Part shown: positions 41,676 through 44,283 of the stretch, in pieces
How positions within the stretch are numbered: position 1 is the stretch's first letter
Layout of the letters: the number at the start of each line of letters is the position of its first letter
Assembly: GCA_028684815.1 (NCBI GenBank)
Contig: JAQUFE010000009.1
Location: forward strand, 1-63,834
Direction of reading: 5' to 3'
DNA length: 63,834 nucleotides
Source: Sulfurimonas sp.
GTDB lineage: Bacteria; Campylobacterota; Campylobacteria; Campylobacterales; Sulfurimonadaceae
The notes under the pieces: model-generated
Told to the model about the DNA's origin: nothing
Database searches by the model: none
Seen by the model: the letters and a program-made list of their open reading frames with translations, nothing else
Made by a program: the position numbers and the translations under genes

Positions 41676-42083
41676 TTAGTACGAGCGAATACGGATGTGA
41701 CAAGAGGTGCATTGTCTGATTATCTGCGTGTAATCTTCAAGTGCATCATCTAAGTTGTTTGCATCTATGGATACGACTAAATCATCTGCATACATCTCTA
41801 TCATCTTTGCTCTTTTGTTAGCAAATTTGTCTGCTTCTTTTTTATCATCTGGAAGATATTTAGATGCATCAGCTGACTCTAAGATAGCTAACTTTGCTTT
41901 TAATTTTTTTACGCCATCTTTCATCATCTGCGGTTCTGAGTAGAAGCCACCTTTTTGTATCAACTCAACAGCCAAGAGCATCTCACGCATATCTGAAGAG
42001 AGTTGCGCCTTTTCCTTAGCATTGGCCAACAGAGATGAACTAAGAAGTAAAGTCATAGCTGTAGTTATTATAATCTTTTTCAT
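41676..42083 (-). CDS. Periplasmic monoheme cytochrome c
   Basis: This 135-aa protein has a signal peptide (residues 1-20). The middle is helical and charged, and one heme motif CTSCH (C125, C128, H129) lies near the C-terminus. A C-terminal CxxCH after a helical bundle is the class II (cytochrome c'-like) plan. It is the last gene of the flavoprotein-Rieske-cytochrome cluster, starting 9 bp after the Rieske gene, and is a likely electron acceptor within it. Confidence 0.85.
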   Translation of the reverse strand: MKKIIITTAMTLLLSSSLLANAKEKAQLSSDMREMLLAVELIQKGGFYSEPQMMKDGVKKLKAKLAILESADASKYLPDDKKEADKFANKRAKMIEMYADDLVVSIDANNLDDALEDYTQIIRQCTSCHIRIRSY

Positions 42084-42092
42084 ATTATTTCC

Positions 42093-42818
42093 TTAATATT
42101 GAATTATCTCTTTAGTGTACTGCGTCAGCTCAACCATAGTAGCGCTCTTAGTTACTTTTTTCTTTGCTTGCCTTGCATTTCCATAATATTTTTTAAATTC
42201 AGGTTTATAAGCTTTAAAGTATTCATGAAATTTATCTCCACCGAGAACACCAACTGCATAGATAGTGTCATCATCTGCAATCTCTAAAACAACTGCTGCT
42301 AGTGGTGATGAAGCTGGACCAGAGATGTTTTTACATCCCTCTTTAGCCTCAAAACTAGATAGATGCGATGAACAAACCACAACACCACCATGATCACATG
42401 CCATAGTTTTTTTGTCCTTTTGAACATATTGCAAGAAACTATCATCTGGAGTTGGATGTGCTAACTGATGTGAACATATTGCGCTATAAGCTACAACTGT
42501 TCTGTCTTTGCCAACCCCACCTTTCCAGATATACTCTTCCCCGTCGTCAGATTTTAATCTTACATCTTTGGCAGTACTTTCTTCTAAATCTAAAAGCATC
42601 GTAGGCGTTCCAATATATGGATATTGAAAAATATAGTTTGTCTCTTTTTTTAGATCAGCAAGTTTTATAGCTACACCATCCGCATTTAGAAGCTGCACCC
42701 TTTCATACGACTCATATAACCCATTACTAGCATACAATCTACCAGATATAGTTGATGGCGAAATTGCTACTAATGCTCCTGTAGCACCTACTACTCGTAA
42801 AAAATTTCTTCTATCCAT
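42093..42818 (-). CDS. Tat-exported Rieske 2Fe-2S protein
   Basis: This 241-aa protein starts with a twin-arginine signal (DRRNFLRVVGATGALV). The Rieske ligands are C115 and H117 in CSH, and C149 and H152 in CSSH, about 32 residues apart. An extra CDH (C141, H143) precedes the second motif. It resembles the Rieske subunits of arsenite-oxidase-like or bc-type enzymes, but no large molybdenum subunit or cytochrome b gene is near. It probably passes electrons between the flavoprotein and the cytochrome c encoded beside it (inference). Confidence 0.85.
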   Translation of the reverse strand: MDRRNFLRVVGATGALVAISPSTISGRLYASNGLYESYERVQLLNADGVAIKLADLKKETNYIFQYPYIGTPTMLLDLEESTAKDVRLKSDDGEEYIWKGGVGKDRTVVAYSAICSHQLAHPTPDDSFLQYVQKDKKTMACDHGGVVVCSSHLSSFEAKEGCKNISGPASSPLAAVVLEIADDDTIYAVGVLGGDKFHEYFKAYKPEFKKYYGNARQAKKKVTKSATMVELTQYTKEIIQY

Positions 42819-42897
42819 ATTGTCTATCTTCCTTTTTATATATTAAGTTATTTATTAAGACCCTCTCTTAAAAAAAGAGAAGGGGCTTTAAAATGAC

Positions 42898-44283
42898 TTA
42901 TGCGAATAGATCTCTCATGATTCCGCCGTACCAGTCACGAGTAGCTTTTGCAGTAGCGCTAGAGCGGTATTTACCACTTGGAGATACAGGTACAGTAGCT
43001 GCACTTACGATCATATTTTTTTCTTGGCTAAAGCTAAAATCATGAATAACCATAATAGCTTCTTCAGGGTTTTCACCAACCATAGAGTAACAAACATTTC
43101 CAGCCTTAATAGTACTAGTTTTAACTGGAAGTTCAAAAGCTTTTTTATGTAGTCTATTAGCAATTTCAAGAGCACATTGCTTACCAGTCCAGTTTGCAGT
43201 TTGCCCACTTGGAGGTACAGCGTGAGACACAACATCACCAACAGCATAAACATCTTTATCTGTTTTAGTTTGGAACGAGCAACCATTCATAACAACTTTT
43301 TTAAAGCTATCAGTAGTAGTCTCAACTCCACTCATCTCTATAACTGGGTTTGAGATATTGTTAGGTATAAGATTTAAAACTGAGTACTTAAGAGTCTTAA
43401 CTTTATAACCTTTATCTTCCATATCGTCTTTAAGATGGTATGTTACTGTTTTTGAAGCACTATCTACATCTTGGATTGTAGCAAAATCTATGTGCTCAAC
43501 TATATCTGGATATAAATCTTTCCATGTTTCCTTAAATGCAGCACCTTTAGAGACAGAGTTTGTAGCATTTAGCATTATTACTTTGCCAGGAATCCCCTCT
43601 TTTTTCATATAAGATGCAATCATAGTAGCACGCTCAAAAGGAGCAGGTGGACAACGGAATTTTCCAGCTGGGATAGTGATAACAACGTTGCCATCTTCCA
43701 TATCAACAAGTTGTCTTTCTAAAATAACATGCTCTTTTCCTGGGATAAGTGCACCTGGAGCTATGCGAGAAATATGATTGATTTTTTCATCATCCCACGT
43801 TGGAAATTGACCTTTGTAGTCATATCCTATACCCGGAGACATAACTAAAATCTCATACTCAACTATACCTTTAGTTGTGTGAATCTGCTTAGTGGCTCTA
43901 TCAATAGCAGTTACTTCTGCATGAAGTAAGCCATAACCATTAGCCTCAACTGGCTGAGCATAATCATGAACTAATGTTCCAAGATTAACGCCTTCTAGCT
44001 TGCCTAGATAAGTATTAGAAAATGGACAAGACATAAAAGTTTCATTTTTCTCGATTACTAAAACATCAAAACTAGCATCTTTTTTCTTTAACTCTTTAGC
44101 AACAGTTAAGCCACCAAAACCACCACCGATAATTACGACCTTATGTTTACATACTTTTTTACCTGCCTTTGAAGCTGATGCTGGTTTAGCACCCTCATTA
44201 CAGCCTGTAACTGTAGCCATTGTTGCAGCAGCTGCAACACTTAGTGCACCAAATTTTAGTGCTTCTCTACGATTCATTTTCAT
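42898..44283 (-). CDS. Flavocytochrome c-type sulfide dehydrogenase flavoprotein (FccB/SoxF-like)
   Basis: This 461-aa exported flavoprotein would oxidise sulfide. A Tat signal (NRREALKFGALSVAAAA) ends in VTGC with C28, so it could also be lipidated. The FAD motif VVIIGGGFGGL is at about 49-59. The signature FRCPPAPFERA with C211 matches the FCSD motif, and C398 in GNVCYSMVG is the likely second redox cysteine. YAVGDVVSHAVP binds FAD. The Rieske and cytochrome c genes follow, in place of the usual FccA diheme cytochrome. AAGGAG precedes the ATG. Confidence 0.87.
   Translation of the reverse strand: MKMNRREALKFGALSVAAAATMATVTGCNEGAKPASASKAGKKVCKHKVVIIGGGFGGLTVAKELKKKDASFDVLVIEKNETFMSCPFSNTYLGKLEGVNLGTLVHDYAQPVEANGYGLLHAEVTAIDRATKQIHTTKGIVEYEILVMSPGIGYDYKGQFPTWDDEKINHISRIAPGALIPGKEHVILERQLVDMEDGNVVITIPAGKFRCPPAPFERATMIASYMKKEGIPGKVIMLNATNSVSKGAAFKETWKDLYPDIVEHIDFATIQDVDSASKTVTYHLKDDMEDKGYKVKTLKYSVLNLIPNNISNPVIEMSGVETTTDSFKKVVMNGCSFQTKTDKDVYAVGDVVSHAVPPSGQTANWTGKQCALEIANRLHKKAFELPVKTSTIKAGNVCYSMVGENPEEAIMVIHDFSFSQEKNMIVSAATVPVSPSGKYRSSATAKATRDWYGGIMRDLFA

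Follow-up and report, generated by a model that had tools for sequence, protein, structure and literature searches.

A flavoprotein, a Rieske protein, and a mono-haem cytochrome as a probable sulfur oxidation module in Sulfurimonas

Encoded side by side on a contig from Sulfurimonas sp. are an FCSD-type flavoprotein, a Rieske protein, and a one-haem cytochrome. These proteins probably constitute a periplasmic module for sulfur oxidation in which electrons would run from the flavoprotein to the Rieske protein and then to the cytochrome, thereby replacing FccA or SoxE. Such a chain is the best reading of the locus, with both the activity towards sulfide and the electron path being inferred. The sulfide electrons of Campylobacterales are mostly attributed to SQR and thus to the quinone level. 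If the proposal is correct, the module would provide a second entry for sulfide electrons at the level of cytochrome c. The Rieske protein belongs to a type of carrier that none of the papers found assigns to sulfide dehydrogenases, and it would offer a candidate, open to testing, for the electron acceptor that is missing.

According to a 2015 review, known Sulfurimonas genomes contain no FCC genes (PMC4584964), which contrasts with the presence of this Rieske protein in 18 of 58 genomes of the same genus. A later paper describes a "non-canonical" fcc in Campylobacterota (PMC10066037), and other reports mention Fcc copies that group with those of Aquificales and archaea, together with Fcc transcripts in situ (PMC12403661), and Fcc in Sulfuricurvum PC08-66 (PMC4288042). 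In a search outside subscription papers and supplements, no paper was found that names a Rieske protein as the partner of a Campylobacterota FCSD.

The locus and its three proteins

The window, namely the entire 63,834-nucleotide stretch of DNA that was analysed, contains the three open reading frames on the minus strand between positions 41676 and 44283. Their features are as follows.

42898..44283, minus strand: flavoprotein of the FCSD type, 461 aa, encoded by the first module gene, with a twin-arginine N-terminus; assigned by Pfam and solved relatives
44200..44202, minus strand: C28, possible lipobox cysteine in V-T-G-C, from the sequence
44026..44028, minus strand: C86 (in MSCPFSN), aligned with the FAD-thioether cysteine of FccB
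43651..43653, minus strand: C211, predicted to form the redox-active disulfide with C398
43090..43092, minus strand: C398, predicted disulfide partner of C211
42093..42818, minus strand: Rieske [2Fe-2S] protein, 241 aa, with a Tat signal, an AioB/SoxF(Sulfolobus)-like fold, and a conserved C-terminal extension
42468..42476, minus strand: Rieske ligand box 1, C115-S-H117, both ligands in 97/97
42363..42374, minus strand: Rieske ligand box 2, C149-S-S-H152, both ligands in 97/97
41676..42083, minus strand: exported c-type cytochrome with one haem, 135 aa, predicted to be a four-helix bundle of class II, c'/c556/b562-like
41988..41990, minus strand: M32, invariant, candidate sixth haem ligand
41697..41711, minus strand: haem-binding CTSCH (C125-H129), six residues from the C-terminus

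The intergenic gaps are 79 bp between the FCSD and Rieske genes and 9 bp between the Rieske and cytochrome genes. Upstream lies a gene that, from its sequence, we take to encode a prephenate-dehydratase-like protein, and ~420 bp downstream are what are presumably NADH dehydrogenase genes, likewise named by recognising their sequences. The nearest relative genome has these flanks as well, apart from one extra open reading frame before the NADH dehydrogenase genes. A comparison with that relative gives dN/dS values of 0.14, 0.08, and 0.07 for the three genes, indicative of purifying selection on all of them. A scan for promoters and terminators returned 15 sites versus 15.9 in shuffled sequences and 2 versus 1.7, respectively, and thus lends no support to the operon borders. 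The genome itself is a draft of 101 contigs that is 96% complete.

A sequence-only reading of this stretch had described an FCSD-type flavoprotein with intact C211 and C398 and a possible lipobox cysteine at C28, a Tat-exported Rieske protein, and a cytochrome with one C-terminal CxxCH; each of these assignments agrees with the profile, alignment, and motif data. In the flavoprotein, the FCSD_central domain (PF21706) scores 96.5 bits (cut-off 27, E = 1.5e-27) and the FCSD-flav_bind domain (PF09242) 34.4 bits (cut-off 26, E = 2.8e-8). The nearest solved structures are the FccB chains 5n1t (2.7e-46) and 1fcd (4.8e-39), which we take to be from T. paradoxus and A. vinosum, respectively. Identity to characterised FccB, estimated from alignments, is ~30%. 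As in the list above, C86, C211, and C398 align with the matching cysteines of A. vinosum FccB and 5n1t, and in the former these are the FAD-linking and disulfide cysteines (PMC3504083). An alignment of 99 FCSDs, including two FccB references and two paralogs from the same genome, shows C211 in every row and C398 in 98, the single gap belonging to a broken copy. The protein has all of the residues expected for a sulfide dehydrogenase. C28 is located in a lipobox-like site, where the flavoprotein is probably lipid-anchored. A loose, permissive pattern for such sites matches 48 of 50, 17 of 34, and 3 of 11 FCSDs of the clades A, B, and C described below. Assignment of the flavoprotein as an SQR was rejected: its top NCBIfam match, SQR_III, reaches only 69 of 525 bits, and the FCSD domains are present.

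The position of the FAD thioether is occupied by cysteine in 83 of the 99 aligned FCSDs and by glycine in 16, all of which belong to clade B, and the flavin is therefore probably non-covalent in those sixteen. These clade B proteins (at loci L070, L073, L075, L083, L085, and others) read SGFISN or SGPVSN at this site and keep both redox cysteines.

For the Rieske protein, PF00355 scores 22.2 bits (cut-off 20.3), the Tat signal model TIGR01409 is above its cut-off, and the four cluster ligands are kept. Rieske proteins of the bc1 type carry two extra cysteines; the module proteins have alanine, threonine, or serine at the first of these positions (120) and serine, glycine, or alanine at the second (151). 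The AlphaFold2 model has a mean pLDDT of 77.7, the first 33 residues being poor. Its top structural matches are AioB chains (E = 2e-6), including that of 8ed4, which according to its title is arsenite oxidase with the native cytochrome c552 acceptor, and these are followed by Thermus and Sulfolobus Rieske proteins. The TM-scores are only ~0.4 when normalised to the query, which is longer than AioB, and the AioB model TIGR02694 gives 44.5 bits, far under its cut-off of 95.65. The nearest NCBIfam model is SoxL2, but with 67.6 of 582 bits the protein is not a member of that model. A role as the bc1 subunit was also rejected, PF00355 having identified a second, separate Rieske protein on another contig (C2) of the same genome. 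A search of plasmids with the Rieske protein returned only six distant records, and four of these carry the annotation arsenite oxidase small subunit.

The cytochrome contains a single CTSCH motif, and C125, C128, and H129 are present in 76 of 76 aligned sequences. M32, likewise methionine in all 76, is the residue that we infer, from class II cytochromes, to be the sixth haem ligand, and on this basis the cytochrome would be an electron carrier. The predicted model (pLDDT 82.9) is a four-helix bundle resembling cytochromes b562 and c'. Its structural matches are weak (best E = 0.034, none under 0.001), and PF01322 scores 17.8 bits, under the cut-off of 26.5. Note that the class II fold predicted by the model would also fit a gas-binding c' cytochrome.

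Conservation of the module and exchange of its flavoprotein

The recurrence of the three-gene neighbourhood in relatives had been set beforehand as a test of the sequence-only reading, and the neighbourhood was indeed found. Genome contigs were scanned with the Rieske alignment, using patterns derived from Campylobacterota, and the best 80 of the 88 relatives were examined. In 76 of these 80 loci an FCSD gene adjoins the Rieske gene on the same strand; of the four that differ, L101 and L126 are uncut whereas L156 and L169 are cut at the 5' contig end. The exact order FCSD-Rieske-cytochrome occurs in 44 loci, SoxY-SoxZ genes are inserted into the module in a further 10, and the remainder show other gene orders or are without the cytochrome. 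The median gaps across this set are 79 and 10 bp. Clustering of its neighbouring genes gave Rieske in 77 loci, FCSD in 74, cytochrome in 61, and the next most frequent gene in 23; no gene outside the module recurs to a similar extent. The recurrence of the three-gene order across the phylum, together with the purifying selection, indicates that the arrangement is more than chance. The cytochrome is encoded in 64 of the 80 loci and missing from 16, a few of which are at contig ends, and thus it may be replaceable.

Apart from one labelled Petrimonas, the titles of these 80 loci read Campylobacterota or "bacterium". The Petrimonas (Bacteroidota) contig, L117, carries a Sulfuricurvum-like FCSD-SoxYZ-Rieske-cytochrome module and is probably mis-binned. 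Genome G088 (L079 and L126) has a lone Rieske gene with no adjoining cytochrome gene and with no FCSD found in the genome, a probable remnant of the module. At two loci (L067, 10310-11515; L068, 9968-11179) a second flavoprotein gene follows the Rieske gene in the place of the cytochrome; its product, of 401 aa, is of the same broad superfamily and has no visible export signal. A porin-like gene is found near the module in 17 of the best 80 of 88 loci (the copy at L061 has no Pfam match) and is a possible route for the export or import of sulfur compounds.

Across the phylum, strong Rieske matches (E < 1e-100) occur in 25 of 298 genomes from seven families of one order, with six additional weak matches. 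Within the family, 73 of 151 genomes have a match at E = 0.001, or 72 when G123, whose sole match is weak, is left aside. Within the genus, the strong matches number 18 in 58 genomes. On the basis of this patchy occurrence, the module is accessory and patchily kept.

The FCSDs of these loci fall into clades A (50 rows, including that of the window), B (34), and C (11). A smaller, careful tree supports these clades at 96/96, 100/100, and 100/99, respectively. In that tree, clades A to C and a Deinococcota FCSD whose gene adjoins soxC are split from FccB and three alphaproteobacterial SoxF sequences by a branch with 100/100 support and a length of 2.64. Next, 97 Rieske proteins were labelled according to the FCSD clade encoded beside them (47 with A, 31 with B, 11 with C, and 8 with none). 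A-linked and B-linked members were found together in one Rieske clade, which has 39 rows, most of them from Sulfuricurvum (SH-aLRT 96). Constraining the A-linked and B-linked Rieske proteins to separate groups lowered the log-likelihood by 104.75 and was rejected (p-AU = 3.45e-5; quick tree, two-tree test). The mixed clade and the rejected constraint point to exchange of the flavoprotein with the Rieske protein kept. Judging from these trees, the FCSD ahead of the same Rieske lineage was exchanged between deeply separate FCSD lineages while the Rieske protein stayed as partner, as expected if it is a shared acceptor. It looks, then, like the constant acceptor, with the flavoprotein as the exchangeable part. 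This exchange of partners, which like the SoxYZ link and the kinship of the Rieske fold to AioB goes beyond the sequence-only reading, is the strongest sign of functional coupling, as distinct from a demonstration of electron transfer.

Proposed mechanism, the SoxYZ link, and rival explanations

The data show the gene order and its conservation, the key residues, the export signals, the kinship of the folds, and the exchange of partners. The scheme that we favour is conditional as regards the substrate, the lipidation, the direction and order of electron flow, and the formation of a complex. The Tat-exported flavoprotein would take two electrons from sulfide, or from sulfane sulfur on a carrier such as SoxYZ, at the C211-C398 disulfide and the FAD and would give them one at a time to the [2Fe-2S] cluster of the Rieske protein rather than to FccA or SoxE. 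The AioB-like Rieske protein would pass them to the class II mono-haem cytochrome, which in turn would feed the cytochrome c pool and the terminal reductases. The order flavin to Rieske to cytochrome is favoured because arsenite oxidase provides a precedent for a Rieske relay.

The genome of the window encodes two additional FCSDs and sox-like clusters. On contig C33 is a soxXYZAB-like cluster, and on contig C19 is a soxCD-Y2Z2-like cluster that runs on to, and ends with, the second FCSD (C19:27222-28553; loci L174 and L050). SoxY was identified by PF13501 and SoxC by TIGR04555, whereas some of the sox names come from recognising the sequences. A gene for a DUF302 protein directly precedes this second FCSD gene, and in a Ruegeria sox plasmid a DUF302 gene comes after that for the FCSD. 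The third FCSD gene (C19:42961-44325) lies 29 bp after a gene for an OprD-family porin (L050:17289-18929).

In a rival explanation, the flavoprotein would be a SoxF-like helper that acts mainly on SoxYZ, by reactivating it or by oxidising or loading its bound sulfur, with the Rieske protein and the cytochrome as the electron outlet and free sulfide as at most a side substrate. SoxYZ genes are in or beside the module string, at several positions, in 15 of the best 80 of 88 loci (L106 and L154 among them), and all 19 of the 19 SoxY rows, in which some genomes are counted twice, retain the carrier cysteine close to the C-terminus. The position of the second FCSD in the soxCD-Y2Z2-like cluster speaks for the same role, as do Sinorhizobium and Ruegeria plasmids in which an FCSD-family gene follows soxYZ-cytochrome c or soxBCD-cytochrome c genes. 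No SoxYZ is seen, however, in the module string of the window or of the other 65 of those 80 loci, and the FCSD clade does not include the SoxF sequences sampled from Alphaproteobacteria. We consider this role possible but unlikely. With regard to SoxC, it was above cut-off in none of eight genomes with an apparent SoxYZ-containing module versus 17 of 36 other genomes searched (Fisher two-sided p = 0.016, post hoc, with kinship ignored and the genomes partly incomplete); inside one genus the figures are 0 of 7 versus 10 of 27 (p = 0.078). The SoxYZ insert was read directly in three of the eight genomes and judged from the FCSD-Rieske gap in five. A SoxYZ link is suggested by the SoxYZ genes inside some modules and by the lack of SoxC in these eight genomes. 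Whether the module is a flavin-and-Rieske sulfur dehydrogenase that acts on sulfur bound to a dedicated SoxYZ carrier and can replace the molybdenum enzyme SoxCD is quite doubtful.

It might also be supposed that the Rieske protein and the cytochrome work for a different enzyme, such as a complex that resembles arsenite oxidase or one that oxidises quinol, and that the FCSD lies next to them by chance or for regulation. AioB chains are the best structural matches of the Rieske protein, and two uncut loci have a Rieske gene with no adjoining FCSD. Yet an arsenite oxidase large subunit was above cut-off in none of the 15 module-bearing genomes searched, by which assignment of the Rieske protein as the AioB of such an enzyme was rejected, and the second Rieske protein of the genome is a different protein. 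Moreover, chance is hard to invoke when the FCSD adjoins the Rieske gene so regularly and from alternative lineages; this explanation is improbable. A module for sensing or detoxifying sulfide or polysulfide, as opposed to an energy-conserving chain, would agree with the patchy occurrence in the genus and with a possible sensor role of a class II cytochrome. Against it stand the series of three redox proteins that are all exported and the lack of any recognised regulator among the genes that recur nearby; it is very improbable.

Comparison with known systems

In FccAB, the flavoprotein hands the electrons of sulfide to a two-haem subunit. The module flavoprotein resembles that of FccAB in its fold, its domains, its FAD-linking cysteine, and its redox disulfide cysteines, and the module is similar in its periplasmic location and its electron entry at the level of cytochrome c, both as predicted. 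It differs in that the place of the two-haem FccA is taken by a Rieske protein together with a class-II-like cytochrome that has one haem, and its flavoprotein belongs to a separate deep clade. The absence of FccA, already noted in the sequence-only reading, extends to all three FCSDs of the draft genome, none of which has a gene with at least two CxxCH motifs beside it. In the best 80 of 88 loci, no gene with exactly two was found up to 2.5 kb from the module, although genes with 5, 8, or 11 such motifs occur at individual loci. Like SoxEF, as exemplified by Paracoccus SoxF and the Ruegeria and Sinorhizobium plasmids, the module encodes an FCSD-family flavoprotein with a cytochrome, often with SoxYZ. 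In contrast to SoxEF, its FCSD is in a different clade from the alphaproteobacterial SoxF sampled, and no Rieske gene is among the annotated genes of the two plasmid stretches.

The description of the chain as an unusual variant stands with respect to FccAB and SoxEF. Yet the gene arrangement occurs widely in Campylobacterales, and a related cluster in Aquificota has already been listed. In that case, an uncultured Sulfurihydrogenibium-like bacterium, the order is dhsU1-Rieske-dhsU2-sox, and DhsU1, encoded beside the Rieske gene, was expressed, purified, and found to be an active monomeric sulfide dehydrogenase (PMC3504083). Compared by gene arrangement alone, both have FCSD-type genes beside a Rieske gene with cytochrome-like and sox genes near; the dhsU cluster differs in its phylum, its gene order, and its two dhsU genes. 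With FCSD genes in Campylobacterota already known and this precedent for a Rieske gene beside a sulfide dehydrogenase gene, the module is not wholly unprecedented.

Finally, the module Rieske protein differs from AioB in being longer, with a C-terminal extension, and in that none of the 15 genomes searched has an AioA partner above cut-off. AioB is nonetheless its best structural match, and in arsenite oxidase AioB is the relay between the catalytic subunit and cytochrome c (PMC5574378), the step proposed here for the Rieske protein.
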